This document shows positions 29,242-41,808 of a stretch of 64,000 bases of DNA, piece after piece. The DNA is taken from NCBI GenBank assembly GCA_021848825.1, contig JAJZTQ010000001.1:1-64000 (forward strand), in the 5' to 3' direction. The notes under the pieces are model-generated. The model worked only from the letters and a program-made list of their open reading frames with translations, was not told where the DNA came from and made no database searches. The first letter of the stretch is position 1; every line of letters begins with the position of its first letter. This DNA is from Pseudomonadota bacterium. GTDB lineage: Bacteria; Pseudomonadota; Gammaproteobacteria; Burkholderiales; JABEVD01. The translations under genes were made by a program, and so were the position numbers.

Positions 29242-29311
29242 CAGAATCTTGGGGCCATTTCAGAGCGGATTCGTCTTGGAGAAAGAAATAAGGATCAGGG
29301 GAGTGCTTTAC

Positions 29312-31912
29312 ATGGGGCTTGCACTGGTGCTTTTCGCTCTGGTCCTTGCCCTCTTGCCGATGCCGAGATATGCGGTCGCCTTGCTGGTTTTTTCTGCCGG
29401 TTTTTCCGCCATGCTGGCCGCGCGCCGCACCGCAGGCATGCTCGAGGAAGACGCAAATACGCGCAGGGAGAACCTGGCGCTGCTCGACAGCGTGATCGCG
29501 AATTCGCCTTTGGGTATCAGCATCACCGACAGGGAAGGGCGCATGATCAGGATCAACAAGGCATTCTGCAGCCTTCTGGGTTATTCCGAAGAAGAACTGC
29601 AGAATCGCAATTTCCGGGGCATCACTCATCCGGAAGATCTGGCCAAGTGCAATGCGAACATCAGATCGCTGCTGGATGGTGAAATTCCTTCCTTCAGGCT
29701 CGAGAAGCGCTATCTGAAAAAGGGCGGAGGCGAAATCTGGGCGCAGCTGACCTCGAGCGCGCTGAAGGACGATATCGAGGAGGCGAAATACGTCATCTCG
29801 CAGATAGAGGATATCACCGATCGAAGACAGGCCGAGAAAGCCTACCTGGATGCGGCTGCGCGTTACAGGACGCTGCTCGATGCCACTTCGGACGGATTCT
29901 GGGCGGTCGAACTGGAAACGGGAAGGCTGGTCGAGGTCAATGATGCCTATGCGGCCATGAGCGGTTTCGAAAGCGAGGAACTGCGAGAATTGAGGGTTTC
30001 TGACCTGGAAGCCAATGAAAAGCCGGAAGAAGTCGGCGAGCATATACTGAAAGTCGTCATCCAAGGACATGACCTTTTCGAAAGCCGGCACAGGAAGAAG
30101 GGAGGCGGCTATTTCGATGTCGAGGTCAGCGCAGTCTATGAACCCGAATCGAACCTCATCATCTGTTTTCTCAGAGACATCACGGAGCGGAAGTTCACTG
30201 AAAATCAGCTCAGGCTGTTCCAGAGGGTATTCGAGAACAGCGGCGAAGGCATCATGATCACCGACAGCGAAAACAGGATAGAGAAGGTCAATCTCGCCTT
30301 TACCCGCCTCACCGGTTATCGCCAGGACGAGGTATTGGGCAGGAATCCCAGCATTCTTTCTTCCGGCCTGCAGGACAGGGAATTCTATGTCGCGATGTGG
30401 GAAAGGCTCGCCAACGAGGGATTCTGGCAGGGGGAAATCTGGGATCGAAGGAAAAACGGCGACACCTATCCGAAATGGCTTTCGATATCGGCGATAAGGA
30501 ACGAGAAGGGCGAGGCGGTGAATTATATCGGCAGCTTTGCCGACATTGCCGAACTGAAAAGGGCCGAAATAGAAATCGAGAAGCTGGCCTATCACGACAC
30601 ATTGACCGGACTGCCAAACCGTTTTAGCCTGCTCGCCAAGCTCGAGCAGGCGATCGCCAAATCGAGGCGCAACCAGACCAGGCTTGCGCTGATGTTCATC
30701 GATCTAGACAGGTTCAAGATCATCAATGACACGCTCGGGCATCACATCGGCGACATGCTGATCGCACAGGTCGGAAATCGCCTTCACAACTGCATCAGGG
30801 AAAGCGATGTCGTGGCGAGGCTGGGCGGGGACGAGTTCGTCGTGCTCATCACGGAAGTCGCCTCCCAGCATGACGTTGGGCTTGTCGCACAGAAGATACT
30901 CAAGGACTTTTCGCAGGCCTATCTCATCGACGGCTTCAGCCTCTTCACCACGCCCAGCATAGGCATCAGCATCTATCCGGACCATGGGGACAATATCAAT
31001 GTCATCATGAAGCATGCCGATGCCGCCATGTATCAGGCGAAAAGCGAAGGCGGAAACGGCTTCAGGTATTTCGAGGAGGCCATGACAAGGAAGAGCTCGG
31101 AGCGTCTCGATTTGGAGAACGGGCTGAGAAGCGCGCTGGAAAATGGCGAGTTCGAACTCCATTATCAGCCCCAGGTGTCTGCGGAAGGGAAGATCAGGGG
31201 GCTGGAGGCGCTCGTCAGATGGCGCCATCCTGAATTCGGCCTGGTTCCGCCTGACCGCTTCATCCCGATCGCGGAGGAAACAGGCATGATACAGGGCCTG
31301 GGCAAATGGGTGCTCGAGGCTGCAAGCAGGCAGATGAAGCGATGGCTGGATAAGGGCTGCAGCCCGATGCGCATCGCGATCAACGTTTCCTCGCAGGAAT
31401 TCCTGCAGACGGGCTTCCCGGAATCCGTCTCCGGCATCATAGCGGACGTCGGAATCAGGCCGGAACAGGTCGAACTCGAAATCACCGAAAGCGCCGCGAT
31501 GTCCCATCCGGAGAAGATAATCGGCATCATGCATGCGCTGAAGGAAGCATCCTTCAGGCTTTCCATAGACGATTTCGGGACGGGATATTCCTCGCTCGCC
31601 TATCTCAAGCTTTTCCCGATCGACCAGATCAAGATAGACAGATCGTTCATCAAGGACATCGCCGTCGATTCGAACGACATGGCGATCACCGTTTCCACCA
31701 TAGGGCTCGCCAGAAAGCTGGGACTCGAGGTGGTCGCCGAGGGGGTGGAAAGCAGGCACCAGTCGGAAATCCTCTTTTCGCACGGCTGCGACCTCATCCA
31801 GGGATACGCATTCAGCAGACCGATTCCGGCGGAAGAAATCGAAAGGCTTCTGGCCCAGCCTATTCTTCGGCCTGCAGCACCGTTCAAAGGCGAACCGGAA
31901 AGCCTGAAATAG
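29312..31912 (+). CDS. Membrane-anchored PAS3-GGDEF-EAL protein
   Basis: The 866-residue product has two N-terminal membrane helices with almost no periplasmic loop (about 3-45), three PAS domains (about 60-180, 185-305, 310-430), GGDEF (LGGDEF, 504-509) and EAL (E632 in GLEALVRWRHP; DDFGTGYSS; KIDRSF). Both catalytic motifs are intact. The ATG at 29312 is preferred because GGGGAG precedes it by 8 nt; an in-frame TTG at 29249 has no ribosome site and overlaps the promoter. Confidence 0.88.
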   Translation: MGLALVLFALVLALLPMPRYAVALLVFSAGFSAMLAARRTAGMLEEDANTRRENLALLDSVIANSPLGISITDREGRMIRINKAFCSLLGYSEEELQNRNFRGITHPEDLAKCNANIRSLLDGEIPSFRLEKRYLKKGGGEIWAQLTSSALKDDIEEAKYVISQIEDITDRRQAEKAYLDAAARYRTLLDATSDGFWAVELETGRLVEVNDAYAAMSGFESEELRELRVSDLEANEKPEEVGEHILKVVIQGHDLFESRHRKKGGGYFDVEVSAVYEPESNLIICFLRDITERKFTENQLRLFQRVFENSGEGIMITDSENRIEKVNLAFTRLTGYRQDEVLGRNPSILSSGLQDREFYVAMWERLANEGFWQGEIWDRRKNGDTYPKWLSISAIRNEKGEAVNYIGSFADIAELKRAEIEIEKLAYHDTLTGLPNRFSLLAKLEQAIAKSRRNQTRLALMFIDLDRFKIINDTLGHHIGDMLIAQVGNRLHNCIRESDVVARLGGDEFVVLITEVASQHDVGLVAQKILKDFSQAYLIDGFSLFTTPSIGISIYPDHGDNINVIMKHADAAMYQAKSEGGNGFRYFEEAMTRKSSERLDLENGLRSALENGEFELHYQPQVSAEGKIRGLEALVRWRHPEFGLVPPDRFIPIAEETGMIQGLGKWVLEAASRQMKRWLDKGCSPMRIAINVSSQEFLQTGFPESVSGIIADVGIRPEQVELEITESAAMSHPEKIIGIMHALKEASFRLSIDDFGTGYSSLAYLKLFPIDQIKIDRSFIKDIAVDSNDMAITVSTIGLARKLGLEVVAEGVESRHQSEILFSHGCDLIQGYAFSRPIPAEEIERLLAQPILRPAAPFKGEPESLK

Positions 31913-32252
31913 CGCATTCCCAGGGCATCGTGTATTTCCGTCAGCCCGATCTGGACCCTGTCTATCCCCGGGCTTCGGAAATCAGATCCCTTCTTGCCGA
32001 AACGGACGCCAGGATTTTACCCGGATAGGGAAGGTCGCTCACACGGCCTTCCGTTGGTCATGTCTGCGCGCTCGTTTCCGTCAATTCCACGATCAGGAGC
32101 AACCTGGATGCGCTAGCCGTTCGGGTTTGCATTGGGATTGTTACAATGTAATCAGGATAACCGTAGTTTGTCATGAAACTGTAAAATTTAGGCTGTATTC
32201 TCGCGATGGAGTCGCAGCGATGTCGAGGCGCACTCTTGAAAACAGAGGAAAT
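31913..32252. other. Intergenic leader of the EAL-CBS-GGDEF gene
   Basis: No gene is supported. In the first 100 bases one plus-strand frame (GIVYFRQPDLDPVYPRASEI..., ending at a TAG near 32027) has coding-like composition and could be a fragment of an old gene, but no family is recognised. The right half is AT-richer and carries a PHO-box-like repeat and a -10 candidate. Confidence 0.4.
32168..32201 (+). promoter_or_regulatory. Possible PHO-box promoter of the EAL-CBS-GGDEF gene
   Basis: TTGTCAT and CTGTAAA stand 11 nt apart with a GAAA linker, followed 10 nt later by TATTCT, which fits the layout of a PhoB-activated promoter (two heptamers, then -10). Matches to CTGTCAT are 6 and 5 of 7. 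The case is weaker than the one upstream of the TonB receptor. Confidence 0.35.
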
Positions 32253-34088
32253 ATGAGCGAAAAGCAGACAGGCGCGGAACAGCCGCAATATGGCGTCAGC
32301 ATGTTGCGCAATGTAATGCCTCGGATGAGTGAAGCAGAGCGCAACAGGAAGCGCCTTCTCCTGGACGACATCATCGAGAATTGTTCCCTGACCGCAGTAT
32401 TCCAGCCCATCATAGACATGGACAACGGCGCCATCATGGGTTACGAGGGCTTGATAAGGGGGCCTTCGGACAGCCCGCTCCACGCGCCCATTGCGCTGCT
32501 GCAGACAGCGGAAACGCAGGGAAGGCTTTTCGAACTGGAGAGGCTTTGCAGGAAGGTTACGCTCGAGAGCTTCCAGAGAGCAGAGCTGAAGGGCAGGCTC
32601 TTCCTCAATATCAGTCCTGAATGCCTGATCGAGCCGCTTTTCAAGGATGGCGAAACGCTCAAGCTGATCCGCGACCTGGGCATCAATCCCGACAGGATCA
32701 TCATCGAGCTCACCGAGGCGCATCCCACCTACGACTACGCCTTGCTCAGGGACGCCGTGAATCATTACAGGGAAATGGGATTCAGGGTGGCGATAGACGA
32801 TCTGGGAGAGGGTTTCTCGAACCTGAGGCTCTGGTCCGAACTGAACCCGGATTTCGTCAAGATCGACATGCATTTCGTCCAGGGCATCAACCAGGATTCG
32901 GTCAAGCACCAGTTCGTCAGCTCCATCCAGCAGATCGCAGAGAGGACGCAGACCAAGGTCATTGCGGAAGGCATAGAAACCTATGCCGAACTCGCGGTCA
33001 TCAAGAATCTGAACATCGCGCTCGGCCAGGGCTACCTGATCGGAAGGCCGAACGCAAACCCCATCGTTTCCGTGCCGACCGAAATCGTCCAGGCGCTGAC
33101 GAAGTCATTCAAGGGAAGGGGGCTCTTCCAGAAAAATGCAGTGGCCAGGAAAATCCTCAGGGAAGTCGTGCCTGTTCCTTCGAGCGCGCCGAACCAGGCG
33201 GTTTTCCAGATTTTCACCGAGAATCCGGAACTGCATTCCCTGCCTGTCGTCGACGACATGACCCCAGTCGGGCTCCTGAAGCGGCATCAGATCATCGAGA
33301 ATTTCGCGAAACCATTTGTCCACGAGCTTTTCGGGAAGAAGCATTGCGCCACGATGATGGATTCTTCGCCGATGATCGTCGACCAGAACATCAGCCTTCA
33401 CGAATTGAGCAACCTGATCGTCTCGTCTGGAAGGCATCATCTTCTCGACGGATTCATCATCACGAGCCAGGGAAAGTATGCCGGGATGGGTACAGGCCAT
33501 GACCTCATGAGGGAAATCACGGAAATCCAGATCAATACGGCGAGGTATGCGAATCCTCTCACGCTTCTTCCCGGCAATGTGCCGATCAACGAGCATATCG
33601 ACATGCTGCTCGAAACGGGCGTATTCTTCTGCGCCTGCTATTGCGACCTGGATAATTTCAAGCCGTTCAACGATGTCTACGGATACAGGCGAGGGGATGA
33701 CATGATCCAGTTCTGCGGCGAGGTGCTCTCGGAAATCTGCGATCCGGAGAGGGATTTCATCGGGCATATCGGGGGGGACGATTTCATCATTCTTTTCCAG
33801 AGCCAGGACTGGCAGAAGCGCTGCGACGAAGCGCTTGTCCGCTTCGACATGCTGAACGCGAGGTTCTTCACTGACGAGCATTTGCGGGAAAAGGGGTTCA
33901 TGACGCAGGACAGGCGGGGAGAGAAGATCTTCTTTCCGCTGACCAGCCTTTCAATAGGCGCCGTGCCTGTCGTGCCCGGAACCTACGATACCCATCATGA
34001 AATCTCGGAAGCGGCTGCGACGGCGAAGAAGAATGCAAAGAAGACGATGGGGAGCAGCCTTTTCGTCGAAAGGCGAAAGAATGCCTGA
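32253..34088 (+). CDS. EAL-CBS-GGDEF signalling protein
   Basis: The 611-residue cytosolic protein has reversed order: EAL (about 25-275), a CBS pair (about 310-435) and GGDEF (about 450-600). The EAL signature is EGLIRG (E65), with ELTEAHP, DDLGEGFSNL and KIDMHFVQG; the cyclase signature is GGDDF at 507-511, with Asp for Glu. Retained acidic residues mean activity cannot be ruled out. The start MSEKQTG is chosen for its AGAGGA ribosome site; in-frame starts exist at 32220 and further up. It converges with the fimV-like gene, 1 bp apart. Confidence 0.85.
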   Translation: MSEKQTGAEQPQYGVSMLRNVMPRMSEAERNRKRLLLDDIIENCSLTAVFQPIIDMDNGAIMGYEGLIRGPSDSPLHAPIALLQTAETQGRLFELERLCRKVTLESFQRAELKGRLFLNISPECLIEPLFKDGETLKLIRDLGINPDRIIIELTEAHPTYDYALLRDAVNHYREMGFRVAIDDLGEGFSNLRLWSELNPDFVKIDMHFVQGINQDSVKHQFVSSIQQIAERTQTKVIAEGIETYAELAVIKNLNIALGQGYLIGRPNANPIVSVPTEIVQALTKSFKGRGLFQKNAVARKILREVVPVPSSAPNQAVFQIFTENPELHSLPVVDDMTPVGLLKRHQIIENFAKPFVHELFGKKHCATMMDSSPMIVDQNISLHELSNLIVSSGRHHLLDGFIITSQGKYAGMGTGHDLMREITEIQINTARYANPLTLLPGNVPINEHIDMLLETGVFFCACYCDLDNFKPFNDVYGYRRGDDMIQFCGEVLSEICDPERDFIGHIGGDDFIILFQSQDWQKRCDEALVRFDMLNARFFTDEHLREKGFMTQDRRGEKIFFPLTSLSIGAVPVVPGTYDTHHEISEAAATAKKNAKKTMGSSLFVERRKNA

Positions 34089-34089
34089 C

Positions 34090-35214
34090 TCACCGCCGTT
34101 CAGGCGCGTCTGACTCGAAATAATCGAGGTGATCCATCAGGGCGGGCCTGGATGATGCAGGATCGATGTACTGCTCGAACAGATTTTCCCTTTCCTTTTT
34201 CTTCCACCTGAAATAGACGATTCCGCCTATCGCCATGAGCGCCGCAAGAAGGCCGATCCAGACCAGGTTCGGGATCGTCTCGCGAGGCTGCTGCGGTTTT
34301 GCCATGTTTATTCTGGCGAGCAGCCTGTTGGTTTGCGCCACGCGGTTCTGCAATTCGGCGAGTTTCCCTTCGAGCGACTTGATCTGCGACTTCAGCTGCA
34401 GCATCTGGACCGCCTGATCGTCGGCGCGGGTGATGAGCTGCGTTTCGGTTTGCTTCAGGGCCTGGTTCGCTTTCTGTTCGCCTGAAACGATGTCGAGGTG
34501 GAATGCAGGCTTGGCTTCAGGCGGTTTGGCTGCCTTCGGCTGCTCCTCGGGAGCGATGGGACTTTCCGTCGATTTGAGATCAGGTATGTTGAGCTTGGAT
34601 CCGGATCTGATGAGATTGGGCGACAGTCCGGGATTTTCTTCCAGGACTTCCGCGATGAAGCGCCGCCTGGCGGTCCTGTCGTCCGGGAAATAGCGGCTTG
34701 CGATTCCGGAAAGGGTGTCGCCGGACCTGACCGTGATGGTTTTCGTTGCAGTTGCTCGATGCGCCGTCATTTGTGGCTTCTCGACAGGCTCCGAATGCAA
34801 GGCGAGCTTCTCGGCCTGCTGCACGACAGGTGGGGAGAGCGAGACGGGATCGAGGAAAACGGTGAAGAGTTTGCCGATTTCGCCGCTTTCGCCGCAGTGG
34901 ATGTCGAGCTTCAGGTCGAGTATCGGTTCATTGATGCTCTGGTCCGTTGCAATGGTGATGAGCCTCCCTGAATCGATGACATCGATTTTCGCATGCTTCA
35001 GCTGGAATATGCCCTCGTCTACCTGCTTCTGGTCCAGCGAAACACAGGAGAGATCGACCTTCTCGGAAGGCGATGGGTTGATGCGGACGGAAGCCTTGAA
35101 GGGTTCGCCCAGGTGGGATTCGACTTTCAATGCGCCGATTTCGAGCGCAAATGCATTGCTGTTCAAGGCCAAGGCTGAGCATGCGGCAACGACTGCTTTT
35201 TTCAATTCGTTCAA
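34090..35214 (-). CDS. FimV-like LysM protein
   Basis: The 374-residue protein has a signal peptide (about 1-23), the FimV N-terminal domain (LEIGALKVESHLGEPFKA, about 24-130), a LysM peptidoglycan-binding domain (ITVRSGDTLSGIASRYF... about 160-215), a coiled coil (about 250-305) and one membrane helix (about 313-333) with a short cytosolic tail. FimV/HubP proteins organise the cell pole, including type IV pili and chemoreceptors. It is much shorter than classical FimV and lacks the TPR C-terminus. It closes the chemotaxis operon. Confidence 0.8.
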   Translation of the reverse strand: MNELKKAVVAACSALALNSNAFALEIGALKVESHLGEPFKASVRINPSPSEKVDLSCVSLDQKQVDEGIFQLKHAKIDVIDSGRLITIATDQSINEPILDLKLDIHCGESGEIGKLFTVFLDPVSLSPPVVQQAEKLALHSEPVEKPQMTAHRATATKTITVRSGDTLSGIASRYFPDDRTARRRFIAEVLEENPGLSPNLIRSGSKLNIPDLKSTESPIAPEEQPKAAKPPEAKPAFHLDIVSGEQKANQALKQTETQLITRADDQAVQMLQLKSQIKSLEGKLAELQNRVAQTNRLLARINMAKPQQPRETIPNLVWIGLLAALMAIGGIVYFRWKKKERENLFEQYIDPASSRPALMDHLDYFESDAPERR

Positions 35215-35270: not shown

Positions 35271-36899
35271 TCAGACCTTGAATCTGGAGACGGATTCCTG
35301 GAGTTTCGCGGCAAGCTGTTCGAGATGATGGAGCGCCTGCGAGGTCTCGACGATAGAATCCGAATTTTCCACTGCAAATCCCGCGATTCTCTCGACGCTC
35401 TGCGCGATTTCCTGGCTTGCCGCACTCTGTTCCCGGGTTGCGGCGACCATCGAGCGGATCTGCTCGAGGGTGTTGTGCGCGCCTTCGTTGATCTTGGCGA
35501 GCGATTCGGCTGCCTCTTTGGTGAGATTCACCCCTGCATTCACTTCCCGGCTGCTCTTGTCCATGATCGATACGGCCTCGTCGATTTCGTTGCAGAAAGT
35601 CTCGATCATGGAGCCGACGTCGGTCGTGGCATTGCCGGTTCGCTCGGCGAGCTTCCTGACCTCGTCTGCGACGACCGCGAAGCCTCTTCCCTGTTCGCCT
35701 GCCCTGGCCGCCTCGATTGCGGCATTGAGCGCCAGCAGATTGGTCTGGTCAGCTATTTCCTTGATCACCATCACGATTTTCCCTATCTCCGCGGAGCGCT
35801 GCTCGAGCGAGGAGATGAGTTTTGCAGAATCGGTGACCGAAACCGAGACCATGCCGAGTTCACGGGCTGCATCTATCGCGACTTTCTGTCCAGCGTTCGA
35901 CAATTCCTGGGCGGTATCGGCGATCTTTTCGGTTTCCGCTGCGCTCTGCGCGACCTGCCTGATCTTTTCGCTGATCTCGTCCACGCTGCGGGAAGTGGAT
36001 GAGGCGGCAGCGCTTTGCTGCTGGGAGCCTTCGGCGATTCTGGATGCGGTGCTGGCGAGCTGGGAGGCCGACTCGGAAACCTCTTCTGCATAGCCATGGA
36101 CCTGATGGACGATCTTCTGGAAGTTCTCGGCGAGCGCATTGAACGCTTTTGCCGCCTGACCGATTTCGTCGTTGCTTTCGACTTCGACGCGCTTGGTGAG
36201 ATCGCTGTCGTGCTGCATTGCAGTCATCACGGCCTGAAGGTTCTTCGCCGGTTTGATGATGGTCCGGATGAACCAGCCGATGACGAAGAAGAGCAGGATC
36301 TGGAGGATGAGCTGTCCAGCCCACAGCCCCATGTCGACCCGCCTCAGTCCGTCGTAATCATCGGAAAGATCGAGCACGATGCTCGCCGCACCGTTCGAGC
36401 TGCCCACCTTCACGTGATGGCACATCAGGCAGTTCGTGCCCCTGAAATTGGTGCTCTCTATGAAGGGGATGACGGCTCTCAGAGCAGGTTTTCCGTCACC
36501 GAGTTTCGTTTTTTCGAAAATCGGCTTTTCACTAGCGAGCGCCTGCCTGTCGAGGTCGTCTTTCGCCTGTTCTTCCGGCAGCCCGGGACCGAACTGGTCC
36601 GAGACCTGTTTTGCCCTGACGATCCTGAGTTCGGCGACCCCTCTGGAATCGCCCATTTTCCTGACCATCAGCTTCCTGTTTTCCGGATCGCTGATCATGC
36701 CGGTCACCATCAGCATGTTCATGCCGTTGAGCAAACCGTCTGCCGATATCTGTGCGCGGATCCTGGCTTCGTCCAGCATGCGCCTTTCGAAACGGTCCAT
36801 GGTCCAGCGCTGCGATACTGCAAGAACGATGATCAGGAATCCCTGTATGAGGATCTGTAGTTTGGCTTGGATACTCAGGGAGTTCCATATTCTTTTCAT
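35271..36899 (-). CDS. Methyl-accepting chemotaxis protein with periplasmic c-type haem motif
   Basis: The 542-residue receptor has membrane helices at about 13-32 and 190-212 enclosing a periplasmic domain that contains [10 protein letters not shown]: Cys157, Cys160 and His161 form a CXXCH haem c site. The layout ([29 protein letters not shown], then the CXXCH) matches the Tll0287-like/c-type haem sensor domain. HAMP follows (about 213-265), then the signalling domain with the highly conserved hairpin [20 protein letters not shown]. It probably senses redox state, O2 or NO (inference). It follows cheA. Confidence 0.88.
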
Positions 36900-36908
36900 G
36901 CTTCCCCT

Positions 36909-38738
36909 TTAAGCTGCGACCTCCAGCTTGATCTTGTTATCCGTGAACATGGCCGCCTTGGTCGAGGAGTCCGACGAAAGAAGCTCTTCCATGTCCAGAA
37001 TCAGCACGATGGAGCCGTCTCCCGAAAGCGTGGCGCCTGCCACTCCCTTCGGCTTTATGCCTTTCAATGGCTTGATGACGACGTCTTCGCGCCCGACGAA
37101 ATTGTTCACCGCCAGAATGAATGCCTTTCCTCCGGCTTTCATCAGCACGCCATAGGACGGGGCATTTTCCTGCGGCCAGTTGATCATCTCGGCGAGCGCC
37201 CTGACGGGGAGCACTTCCTCCCTGACAACCATGGTCGCCCTTCCCGATACGGACTGGATTTCCTCGGGATTGATCGGAATGATTTCCCTCACCATGGCGA
37301 GCGGAACGGCAAAGGACTGCCCGCCGACCTGGACGATCAGGACGGGGAGAATGGCGAGCGTGAGCGGCAGATAGATGGAGAAGGTGGAGCCTTTGCCGGG
37401 GATGGAGGCGATTTCTATCCGGCCGTTGAGCTTCTGGATGTTGGTCTTGACCACATCCATGCCGACCCCTCTCCCGGAGACGCTCGATATCTGATCCTTG
37501 GTCGAGAAGCCCGGCATGAAGATCAGACCGAGGCTTTGCTGCTCATCCATGTTGTTGAGCATTTCCTCGTCGACTATGCCTTTTTCGAGGGCCTTTCTGC
37601 GCAAGGCTGCCGCATTCATGCCCCGGCCATCGTCCGTGATTTCGATGACGATATGATCGCCTGCCTGGATCGCTGAAAGCTTGACGATGCATTTCTCGGG
37701 TTTGCCCGCAGCCCTGCGCTCTTCCGGGGTCTCGATGCCGTGATCCACTGCGTTCCTGATGAGGTGCACGAGGGGGTCCGAAAGCTCTTCTATCATGGTC
37801 TTGTCGAGTTCGGTTTCCTCGCCGGATATTTCCAGTTCCATTTCCTTTCCGAGCTGGCGCGCAAGATCTCGCGCCATGCGGGGATATTTCTGGAAAAGGC
37901 GGCCGACTGGCTGCATGCGCGTTTTCATGACGGCGTTCTGCAGCACGCCGACAAGCAGATCGAGCTGGTTGACCGCTTCGTCGAGGTCTCTCATCGTCTG
38001 GGAATCGTTTTTTCCCTGAATGATGTTGTTCCTCAGGCAATTCAGCCTGTTTTTCGTCAAGCCGATTTCACCTGACAGATTGAGAACCTGGTCGAGCCTT
38101 GCAGTGTCGATCCTGATCGTGGTTTCCTTTTCGGCTGCCGCCTTGTCCGATTCACGCCTCGGGCTTCTTTCTCTGGGCGCGTCCGTTTCCCTTCTCCTGG
38201 GGGCGGCTGCTTCGACATGAGCGGGTTCTGCCGCCTGGGCGGGATGCTGAGGCGAGGAGGCAACCAGACTTCCGTACAGTTTTTCCCAGTCAGGCCCTGC
38301 GCCGCTGACTTCCCGTTTTTCCGTCTTGGCCGGCGTTTCCAGCGCTTCGCCCTTGACTGCGCTCGCGAGTCTTTCAAGGAGCCCGGGATCTGCCGGGGCG
38401 GGCTGCGTGAAATGCTCGAGCGAGCCGAACATTTCTCTCACTTCGCCCGTCGCAGCGAAGATCGCATCCATGATGCCTGGCGTCATGACGAGTTCGCCGT
38501 TTCTCAGCTTGTCGAAAAGGTTTTCGGTGAGATGGCAAAGCTTCACCATCTCGTTGGCGTTCAGGAAACCTGCGCCGCCCTTGATGGTGTGGAAGTTCCT
38601 GAAGATGTCGTTGAGCAGCTTCTTGTCGCCCGGGTCCTTTTCGAGATCGACCAGCTTGTTGTCGACGTCGGATAACAGATCTCCCGCCTCCTGCAGGAAA
38701 TCCTGCAGCATTTCCTCATTGCCGGCAAAATCGTTCAT
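36909..38738 (-). CDS. cheA: Chemotaxis histidine kinase CheA without P2 domain
   Basis: The 609-residue kinase has P1 with phospho-His50 (NFHTIKGGAGF), a Pro/Ala/Glu-rich linker (about 106-210) where the CheY-binding P2 domain would be, P3 dimerisation (about 212-280), P4 ATPase (HLIRNAVDHGIE, DDGRGMN, GRGVGMDVV) and P5 CheW-like (about 470-605). CheA autophosphorylates under receptor control and passes phosphate to CheY. It lies between cheZ and the haem receptor, about 10 bp from each. Confidence 0.92.
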   Translation of the reverse strand: MNDFAGNEEMLQDFLQEAGDLLSDVDNKLVDLEKDPGDKKLLNDIFRNFHTIKGGAGFLNANEMVKLCHLTENLFDKLRNGELVMTPGIMDAIFAATGEVREMFGSLEHFTQPAPADPGLLERLASAVKGEALETPAKTEKREVSGAGPDWEKLYGSLVASSPQHPAQAAEPAHVEAAAPRRRETDAPRERSPRRESDKAAAEKETTIRIDTARLDQVLNLSGEIGLTKNRLNCLRNNIIQGKNDSQTMRDLDEAVNQLDLLVGVLQNAVMKTRMQPVGRLFQKYPRMARDLARQLGKEMELEISGEETELDKTMIEELSDPLVHLIRNAVDHGIETPEERRAAGKPEKCIVKLSAIQAGDHIVIEITDDGRGMNAAALRRKALEKGIVDEEMLNNMDEQQSLGLIFMPGFSTKDQISSVSGRGVGMDVVKTNIQKLNGRIEIASIPGKGSTFSIYLPLTLAILPVLIVQVGGQSFAVPLAMVREIIPINPEEIQSVSGRATMVVREEVLPVRALAEMINWPQENAPSYGVLMKAGGKAFILAVNNFVGREDVVIKPLKGIKPKGVAGATLSGDGSIVLILDMEELLSSDSSTKAAMFTDNKIKLEVAA

Positions 38739-38750
38739 TTCGACCCTTTC

Positions 38751-39479
38751 TCAAAAACCCAGGCTTTCCAGGAGCTCGTCGACCTGTGCCTGGTTGGTCA
38801 CGACGCTGCCGTCGACATGGATGACAGGGCCGTTCAACAGTCCTGTCGGCACCTCGGCCTGAGGCGAGCTCTCGATCAGGAGCGTCAGAAGCTGGGATTC
38901 CACCGATCTCACGATCTCCACCACTTTCTTGATGACCTGGCCTGTCAGGTCCTGGAAATCCTGGGCCATCATGATTTCGGTGAGCTGGCTGTTGGTCGCC
39001 CTGACCTGCTGCGGAACATCGCTCAGGTAACTCCTGGTTTTTAGGACGAGTTCCTTGAATTCTTCGAGCGAAAGGCTGTTATCGAAAACCTTGGCCCACT
39101 GTCCCGAAAGAGCTTCTGCCTGTTCGCCCAGCTGTTCCTGGATCGGTCTTGCGACTTCGGTTGCACTGAGCACGCGCTCTGCGGCCTGCTGCGTCAGATT
39201 CGCGATATAGGAGAGCCGATCGTTCGCATCCGGAATGCTGACCGCCACCTTTTCCAGGGATTTGTCATAGCCGAGTTGATGCAGCGCGTCGAAAAGATTG
39301 CGCGTCATGTGGCCGAGTTTCGAAAAGACTTCGGGCTCGCCGGATTCAGGCATGGCCTGCGGCAACGGCGCTTCGGCCGTTTTTTCCATGACGGGTGCTT
39401 CCTTTGCAGGCGGCTCATCTTCCTTGCTCGCCTGAACGATGGAATCGAACAGCGCTTCCAGGTCCTCGGTGTCTTCCAT
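38751..39479 (-). CDS. cheZ: CheY-P phosphatase CheZ
   Basis: The 242-residue helical protein carries the CheZ active-site motif MAQDFQDLTGQVIKKVV near 155-172, with the catalytic Gln, and the C-terminal CheY-binding peptide (QAQVDELLESLGF). It dephosphorylates CheY-P to end the signal. Starts 2 bp after cheY. Confidence 0.92.
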   Translation of the reverse strand: MEDTEDLEALFDSIVQASKEDEPPAKEAPVMEKTAEAPLPQAMPESGEPEVFSKLGHMTRNLFDALHQLGYDKSLEKVAVSIPDANDRLSYIANLTQQAAERVLSATEVARPIQEQLGEQAEALSGQWAKVFDNSLSLEEFKELVLKTRSYLSDVPQQVRATNSQLTEIMMAQDFQDLTGQVIKKVVEIVRSVESQLLTLLIESSPQAEVPTGLLNGPVIHVDGSVVTNQAQVDELLESLGF

Positions 39480-39481
39480 CC

Positions 39482-39871
39482 CTATACTCCCATGGTCTTG
39501 AAGATTTTTTGTAGTTTTTCGTCCAGCGTCGCTGCAGTGAAAGGCTTGACGATATAGCCGCTCGCGCCTGCCTTTGCAGCCTCGATGATGTTTTCTTTCT
39601 TCGCTTCCGCCGTCACCATCAGTACAGGCAGATGCTTGAGCGAAGCGTCGGCCCTGATCGCCCTCAGGAGATCGATGCCTGTCATGTTCGGCATGTTCCA
39701 GTCGGACACGACGAACTCGAAACCTCCCCCCTGCAGCTTCTTCAGTGCATCCACGCCGTCTTCAGCTTCAGTCACGTTGGGAAATCCAAGTTCCTTCAGC
39801 AGGTTGCGAACGATCCTCCGCATGGTCGAGAAATCGTCGACCACCAGAATCTTCAAATCGGCCTTCGCCAT
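39482..39871 (-). CDS. cheY: Chemotaxis response regulator CheY
   Basis: The 129-residue single receiver domain has [17 protein letters not shown], phospho-Asp in [12 protein letters not shown] (about 58), Thr in [13 protein letters not shown] and Lys in GYIVKPFT. CheY-P binds the flagellar switch. Spacing to cheV is 60 bp, to cheZ 2 bp. Confidence 0.94.
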
Positions 39872-39931
39872 AAAGTCTCCATATCCATTTCAGAACCTGT
39901 CGATTATTCCGAATAGGTGCTGTTTGGTCAA

Positions 39932-40861
39932 TTATCTCTCTAGATATTGTCTCATGGTCTCGGCGAGAACAGTCGGATTGAATTTCGCCACATAATCGTC
40001 GACGCCGACGGTCTTCCCCATGGACCGGTTGGCTTCGGAGGAAAGAGAGGAATGCATCACGACCGGAATGCCCTCGAATCTCCCATCGGACTTGATATTC
40101 CGGGTCAGCACGTAGCCGTCCATTTCGGGCATCTCGGCGTCGACCAGGATCAGCCTCAGGCGCTCGACGAGCGGCACATCCGCGCTCTGCGCCGCCATCG
40201 CCAGCAGCTTGTCCCAGGCTTCCTTGCCGTTGGTCGCCTGGTAGTATTTGACGCCCAGTTTGTCGAGCACCTGCATGATTTCCTTCCTCGCCACCATGGA
40301 ATCGTCGGCGAAGAAAACCGTCATCTCTCCCTCCGACTGGACCGGGTTGACGTCAGGAATGTCGGTTTCTCCGAATGCCTGGACCAGGATCTGCTCCACA
40401 TCCAGGATGGAGACCAGCCTGCCGTCATCCAGTTTCGTCACCGAGGTGATCAGTCCCTCGTTTCCGGTCAGCATGGATTCTGGCGCCTTCACCTTTTCCC
40501 AGTCCACCCGGATGATTCTGTCCACGCTTTCCACGAGGAAGCCCTGGGTCTGACGGCTGTATTCCGTCACCATCATGGTTTCCCCGATTTCCCCGCCATT
40601 GCCGATATCGAGAAAGCTGGCGAGGTTGATCACCGGAATGATGTTCCCTCGCAACGAAATGATCCCGACGACGCCCGGATGCATGTTGGGCGTCTTGGTG
40701 ATGGGAGGAGTCTTGGTCACTTCCCTGATCTTGAAGACATTGATGCCGAAAATCTCGCTCGTCCCCAGAGAAAAAAGCAGGATTTCCATCTTGTTCGATC
40801 CTGCCAGCGTGGTGCGGGCATCGATGTTGGCGAGAAGGGTATTGTTGATCCCGGAATCCAT
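39932..40861 (-). CDS. cheV: CheV coupling protein (second copy)
   Basis: The 309-residue protein joins a CheW-like domain (about 20-160: EIFGINVFKIREV, GVVGIISLRGNIIPVINL) to a receiver domain (about 178-309: VFFADDSMVARKEI, LILVDAEMPEMDG). It couples receptors to CheA and its phosphorylation tunes adaptation. It is paralogous to the gene just upstream; no separate cheW is present in this operon. Confidence 0.9.
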   Translation of the reverse strand: MDSGINNTLLANIDARTTLAGSNKMEILLFSLGTSEIFGINVFKIREVTKTPPITKTPNMHPGVVGIISLRGNIIPVINLASFLDIGNGGEIGETMMVTEYSRQTQGFLVESVDRIIRVDWEKVKAPESMLTGNEGLITSVTKLDDGRLVSILDVEQILVQAFGETDIPDVNPVQSEGEMTVFFADDSMVARKEIMQVLDKLGVKYYQATNGKEAWDKLLAMAAQSADVPLVERLRLILVDAEMPEMDGYVLTRNIKSDGRFEGIPVVMHSSLSSEANRSMGKTVGVDDYVAKFNPTVLAETMRQYLER

Positions 40862-40869
40862 GTTTTCTC

Positions 40870-41808
40870 CTAGGCTAGCAGGCGCTTGAGCGTCGCTGCA
40901 AGCTTGTGCGGCTCGAATTTCGATACATATTCGTCAACCCCAACGGATTGTCCGAGTTGCTGGTTGGAAGTGCCGGAAAGGGAAGAATGCATGATCACCG
41001 GGATGCCCTCGAATCTCGGATCAGACTTGATTCTCTTGGTCAGAAGATAGCCGTCCATCTCCGGCATTTCTACATCCGTGAGAACGAGCTGGATGATGTT
41101 CTTTACCGGAGTATGCGTGGCCTCCGCCCGGTTGGCGAGGGCCGAGAGCTCGTCCCATGCCTGCTTGCCGTTGACTGCGCTCATGTAGTCCACGCTCATC
41201 GCTTTCAGGGTGGATTCGATCTGGCCCCTCGCGACCGAAGAATCATCGCAGAAGAAGATCGTGCGCTTGACATTCATCGGCTCGATCCCGGCGAAAAGAT
41301 GTTCGTTGTCGAATCTGCTCGTCTCCGAAAGGATTTTTTCGACGTCGAGCAGCATGACGAGACGTCCGTCGTCGAGCTCGGTGACGGCGGTGACGAGTCC
41401 GCCCATGTTCGCCGTCAGCATTTCTGGCGGCACTTTCATTGCAGACCAATCCAGCCTCAGGATGATGTCGACCGCTTCGACAAGAAATCCCTGGGTATGG
41501 CCGTTGTATTCCGTGACGATCAGGATCTCGGGCTTCTTCTCGGTTTCTATTCCGGCATATTTCGCGATGTCGATGACCGGGACAAGCACTCCCCTCAGGC
41601 TCACCATCCCTTCCACGGAAGCGGGCATTTCCGGCGCACAGGTGATTTCAGGCGCGCGCATGACTTCCCGCACCTTGAATACGTTGATCCCGAAACTCTC
41701 CTTTCTTCCCGTCCTGAGATCTTTTCCCAGCGTGAAAAGGAGAATTTCAAGCTTGTTCGTCCCCGCCAGCTTGGTGCGTGCATCGACGTTTTTTAGGAGT
41801 TCGGACAT
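40870..41808 (-). CDS. cheV: CheV coupling protein (first copy)
   Basis: The 312-residue protein has the same CheW-receiver layout (SFGINVFKVREVMRAP, GMVSLRGVLVPVID; IFFCDDSSVARGQ, LVLTDVEMPEMDG). It begins SELLKNVDARTKLAGTNKLE, closely like the second copy's start, so the pair arose by tandem duplication. It heads the large che genes, 8 bp before the second copy. Confidence 0.9.
   Translation of the reverse strand: MSELLKNVDARTKLAGTNKLEILLFTLGKDLRTGRKESFGINVFKVREVMRAPEITCAPEMPASVEGMVSLRGVLVPVIDIAKYAGIETEKKPEILIVTEYNGHTQGFLVEAVDIILRLDWSAMKVPPEMLTANMGGLVTAVTELDDGRLVMLLDVEKILSETSRFDNEHLFAGIEPMNVKRTIFFCDDSSVARGQIESTLKAMSVDYMSAVNGKQAWDELSALANRAEATHTPVKNIIQLVLTDVEMPEMDGYLLTKRIKSDPRFEGIPVIMHSSLSGTSNQQLGQSVGVDEYVSKFEPHKLAATLKRLLA

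Follow-up and report, generated by a model that had tools for sequence, protein, structure and literature searches.

We found that the open reading frame at positions 35271..36899 on the minus strand of the window (the whole stretch of 64,000 nucleotides that was analysed) encodes a methyl-accepting chemotaxis protein of 542 amino acids with a predicted haem-c sCache sensor domain. The protein is probably an sCache_heme chemoreceptor and most akin to the GSU0582/GSU0935 type; His161 and Met64 would ligate its haem, and ligand switching would respond to redox state or NO.

The reading frame starts with ATG, and its product is arranged as a TM helix, a periplasmic domain, a second TM helix, a HAMP domain and an MCP signalling domain (all feature coordinates below are on the minus strand). 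TM helix 1 (residues 10-28; 36816..36872) was assigned from a hydropathy peak and the long N-terminal helix of the model structure, and TM helix 2 (residues 197-215; 36255..36311) from a hydropathy peak; according to the hydropathy profile, residues about 30-190 lie outside the membrane. The HAMP domain (residues 209-261; 36117..36275; Pfam PF00672, 1.2e-12) and the MCP signalling domain (residues 355-506; 35382..35837; Pfam PF00015, 3e-47) both exceed the Pfam cut-offs, which identifies the protein as a methyl-accepting chemotaxis protein. Direct reading of the sequence gave the motif C157-L-M-C160-H161 (36417..36431), and because the motif lies between these two hydropathy peaks, it would be on the periplasmic side. 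The only cysteines of the receptor are Cys157, Cys160 and Cys436, the first two of which are the only ones in the sensor part. The first-pass annotation had placed a CXXCH motif in the periplasmic domain of this receptor, and the reading frame, motif and topology all agreed with it.

The CXXCH motif of the receptor is not a chance occurrence. It arose in only 5 of 20,000 shuffles of the receptor protein and is kept in every domain-bearing relative recovered from related genomes and from public contigs. Among 72 distinct near-full-length sensor domains, both CXXCH and Met64 were present in all 72, and the strictly invariant residues were Met64, Pro145, Cys157, Cys160, His161 and Gly170, with no others. 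Of 300 genomes of the order searched with a family profile, 51 carry the domain, representing 20 of 134 genera; the relatives were mostly from Proteobacteria MAGs and Gallionella/Sideroxydans records.

We then assigned the sensor domain (residues about 32-187; 36339..36806) by an AlphaFold2 model, PDB comparison and profile-profile alignment. No known Pfam domain was detected in the sensor part of the receptor. PF11845 gave no match to the receptor protein up to an E value of 10, and none at its curated cut-off, and gave weak matches (best E 0.0031) to 7 of 28 relatives; PF21563 at its curated cut-off matched neither the receptor protein nor anything else in its own genome. PDB sequence searches with the receptor protein or the profile of its family, and likewise with one distant relative, found no haem sensor. 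The link to haem sensors was reached through PF21563 as an intermediate family. An hhalign comparison of the receptor family with PF21563 members was colinear over 205 columns (probability 99.2, E 1.6e-19), with the two CXXCH motifs in register and Met64 opposite an invariant Met, and the PF21563 profile in turn matched 3b47 (9e-15) and 3b42 (1e-14), the solved haem-c sensor domains of GSU0582 and GSU0935, respectively. Profile-profile comparison with genuine PF11845 members gave an E value of 1.5e-9, and hhalign with only six signalling Tll0287 sequences gave a weak match (probability 30). Judged by this profile homology, the domain is a member of the haem-c Cache superfamily that lies outside both Pfam models, with the Geobacter type nearest: GSU0582/GSU0935 (PF21563) are nearer kin of the sensor than Tll0287 (PF11845). 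The description of the domain as Tll0287-like therefore holds at the superfamily level, where the profile match is joined by a fold match to Tll0287 (5b82; Z 9.9, rmsd 3.9, 122 aligned, among the best matches of the model), but not at the family level, because PF11845 does not match, the nearer kin are GSU0582/GSU0935, and the predicted distal ligand is Met, not the Cys of Tll0287. The solved 3b42 and 3b47 domains, which are swapped dimers (PMC3460858), were absent among the fold matches listed (Foldseek, VIA). The receptor adds one more member to an already known kind of haem-c sensor, and current Pfam models do not recognise the branch that it adds to the haem-Cache sensors.

Covalent haem c on the periplasmic domain of the receptor is supported by this homology and by an entire System I cluster for haem-c maturation, ccmA, B, C, E, F, G (thioredoxin-like) and H, on another contig (C52) of the same genome, and the earlier proposal of a haem-c receptor is borne out to that extent. 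In the crystal structure of GSU0935, the axial haem ligands are His144 and Met60 (PMC8396549). In 3b42, the Met in the aligned column has chain number 26 and the His of CXXCH has chain number 110; since the latter corresponds to His144 of the full-length protein, an offset of 34 makes the aligned Met Met60. Met64 of the receptor (36708..36710) would thus be equivalent to Met60, an equivalence that passes through two alignments, and we infer His161/Met64 ligation of the haem. The distal ligand of Tll0287 is Cys (PMC12889525), and His/Cys ligation of that type is not found here, as the sensor has no Cys beyond the two of the motif. For the Geobacter haem-c sensors, which have potentials of -156 and -251 mV, a redox-linked ligand switch has been proposed, with redox preferred as the signal; the Met of GSU0935 is released on oxidation, and NO and CO displace Met60 (PMC8396549). 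Met64 is the single residue on which the model of redox/NO ligand switching becomes testable.

These observations suggest the following mechanism. Within the periplasm, the Ccm proteins would link haem c to C157 and C160. On the proximal side its iron would be bound by His161 and on the distal side by Met64, which lies where the first helix ends, and Met64 would cap the iron in the reduced state. Oxidation of the haem or binding of NO would displace Met64 and shift the first helix, and this shift, by analogy with the published Geobacter model, would pass through the TM helices and HAMP domain and alter the activity of the CheA array. The receptor would feed the adjacent CheA-CheY-CheZ-CheV pathway, together with further receptors that share its signalling class. 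The genome carries flagellin genes.

We considered whether the CXXCH might carry no haem at all and instead form a metal site or disulphide, the domain being an ordinary Cache domain for small molecules. The AlphaFold2 model of the sensor (pLDDT 85.6) has the single Cache fold of sCache_heme proteins, and its best structural hits are Cache domains that bind no haem, such as WalK (Z about 12.7, above 5b82) and CitA. In addition, the loop that carries CXXCH was modelled with the lowest confidence of the whole sensor (pLDDT 55-72 around residues 151-170). While these hits and the low-confidence loop would suit a haem-free domain, the invariance of both the motif and Met across the family, the profile homology to families that include three haem-c sensors of solved structure, and the presence of Ccm in the genome make such a domain highly improbable. 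An aerotaxis receptor with O2 bound directly at the haem would have a precedent in DcrA of Desulfovibrio, which has been proposed to sense redox and O2 via haem c (PMC8396549). However, the invariant distal Met argues for a six-coordinate reduced haem, and characterised sCache_heme proteins, among them a signalling-associated one that releases NO slowly, form no stable O2 complex (PMC12889525); we regard this reading as very unlikely.

The same slow release of NO, together with the proposal of NO as the signal for sCache_heme domains fused to signalling modules (PMC12889525), raises the question of whether the receptor is the same haem-c protein with NO specifically as its physiological signal and redox as a side effect. 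GSU0582 and GSU0935 also bind NO in both redox states (PMC8396549). On the other hand, the tested protein comes from Pseudomonas azotoformans and was assigned to DUF3365/Tll0287 (PMC12889525), redox is preferred for the Geobacter type (PMC8396549), and no NO reductase of full length from the haem-copper family was found in the genome, whose COX1 matches comprise two long proteins, resembling bo3-type quinol oxidases by inspection, and two short ones. An NO-specific receptor is conceivable, and we hold it only tentatively. Of the three signals named by the first-pass annotation (redox, O2 or NO), O2 is unlikely as a direct ligand, and the natural signal of the proposed His161/Met64 receptor is most likely periplasmic redox poise or NO, both of which are compatible with Met64.

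The receptor gene belongs to a che operon with the minus-strand order CheV-CheV-CheY-CheZ-CheA-MCP-FimV-like. Pfam searches identified two CheV proteins (CheW plus receiver; 40870..41808 and 39932..40861), the response regulator CheY (39482..39871; 3.3e-31), the phosphatase CheZ (38751..39479; 1.3e-71) and the histidine kinase CheA (36909..38738; Hpt, H-kinase_dim, HATPase_c and CheW), and cheA and the receptor start are 9 bases apart. The conserved last gene of the cluster encodes a FimV-like LysM protein (34090..35214; FimV_N 7e-10, LysM 5e-6), and the order of cheA and mcp followed by the FimV-like gene is shared by six related contigs. Elsewhere, FimV/HubP proteins act as polar landmarks, and the FimV-like protein may place the chemotaxis array. 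Two c-di-GMP proteins are encoded next to the operon: an EAL-CBS-GGDEF protein (Pfam; 32127-34088) adjoins the che cluster and is kept beside it in related contigs, and a PAS-GGDEF-EAL protein (by reading) lies at 29249-31912.

No other receptor is encoded in the stretch from CheV (41808) to the FimV-like gene (34090), and the receptor is indeed the only one in the operon. However, the suggestion that it sets the main taxis input was not sustained. The genome encodes 13 MCP-signal proteins, that is, 12 besides this receptor, and several of them have the same signalling-hairpin arm length, which differs in the receptor of the CheR/CheD cluster; the receptors of equal arm length may share the array of the receptor studied here. 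Furthermore, in the che operon of a congener (G005), the FimV-like gene comes immediately after the orthologous cheA (82%) and the receptor is missing (L172, 1501-4594). The operon itself (36909-41808) has two CheV and lacks CheW, CheR and CheB. The genome has CheW and CheR in two further che clusters, one of which also has CheB: one cluster encodes CheY, CheA, CheW, CheR and CheD, and the other CheB, CheA, CheR, two CheW and a CHASE3 receptor.

The haem-Cache domain occurs in three of the 13 receptors, namely this one and those on contigs C10 and C29. The C29 receptor (L068, 1873-3963) combines it with an added N-terminal cytoplasmic PAS domain and is possibly a two-input energy sensor. A fourth copy, on contig C5 (L067, 921-3830), heads a PAS-GGDEF-EAL protein and is 54% identical to the haem-Cache region of the receptor. 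With one sensor type heading both chemoreceptors and GGDEF/EAL proteins in a single genome, a common input to taxis and biofilm switching becomes a question that can be addressed. A tree built from 57 domains requires the MCP versus GGDEF output label, assigned from motifs and checked by Pfam for five proteins, to change 4 times, and at least 2 of these changes are forced by well supported branches. Whole-protein BLAST had suggested L037, L044 and others as receptors, which the motif check rejected as GGDEF proteins; Pfam confirmed L058 as a GGDEF protein. It is conceivable, if doubtful, that a Pfam-invisible haem-c Cache branch spans the order, has been swapped repeatedly between receptors and c-di-GMP enzymes, and reads the redox poise of periplasmic electron transfer. 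If so, swimming and attachment in one cell would follow the same haem signal.

Among known systems, the receptor most resembles GSU0582 and GSU0935 of Geobacter sulfurreducens (PF21563; 3b47 and 3b42), which are MCPs with a periplasmic haem-c domain between two TM helices followed by HAMP, and with CXXCH and a distal Met at matching places. It differs from them in the stretch from Met to the first Cys (93 residues versus their 80) and in being missed by the Pfam model, as part of a separate branch found in this order. With Tll0287/DUF3365 (PF11845; sCache_heme in PMC12889525), it shares the sCache fold and a CXXCH between the last strands, whereas it has no PF11845 match, no distal Cys and a different middle region. 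DcrA of Desulfovibrio vulgaris is, by description, likewise a chemoreceptor with periplasmic haem c (PMC8396549), the haem being predicted in our receptor, but unlike our receptor, DcrA has an additional cytoplasmic PAS domain.
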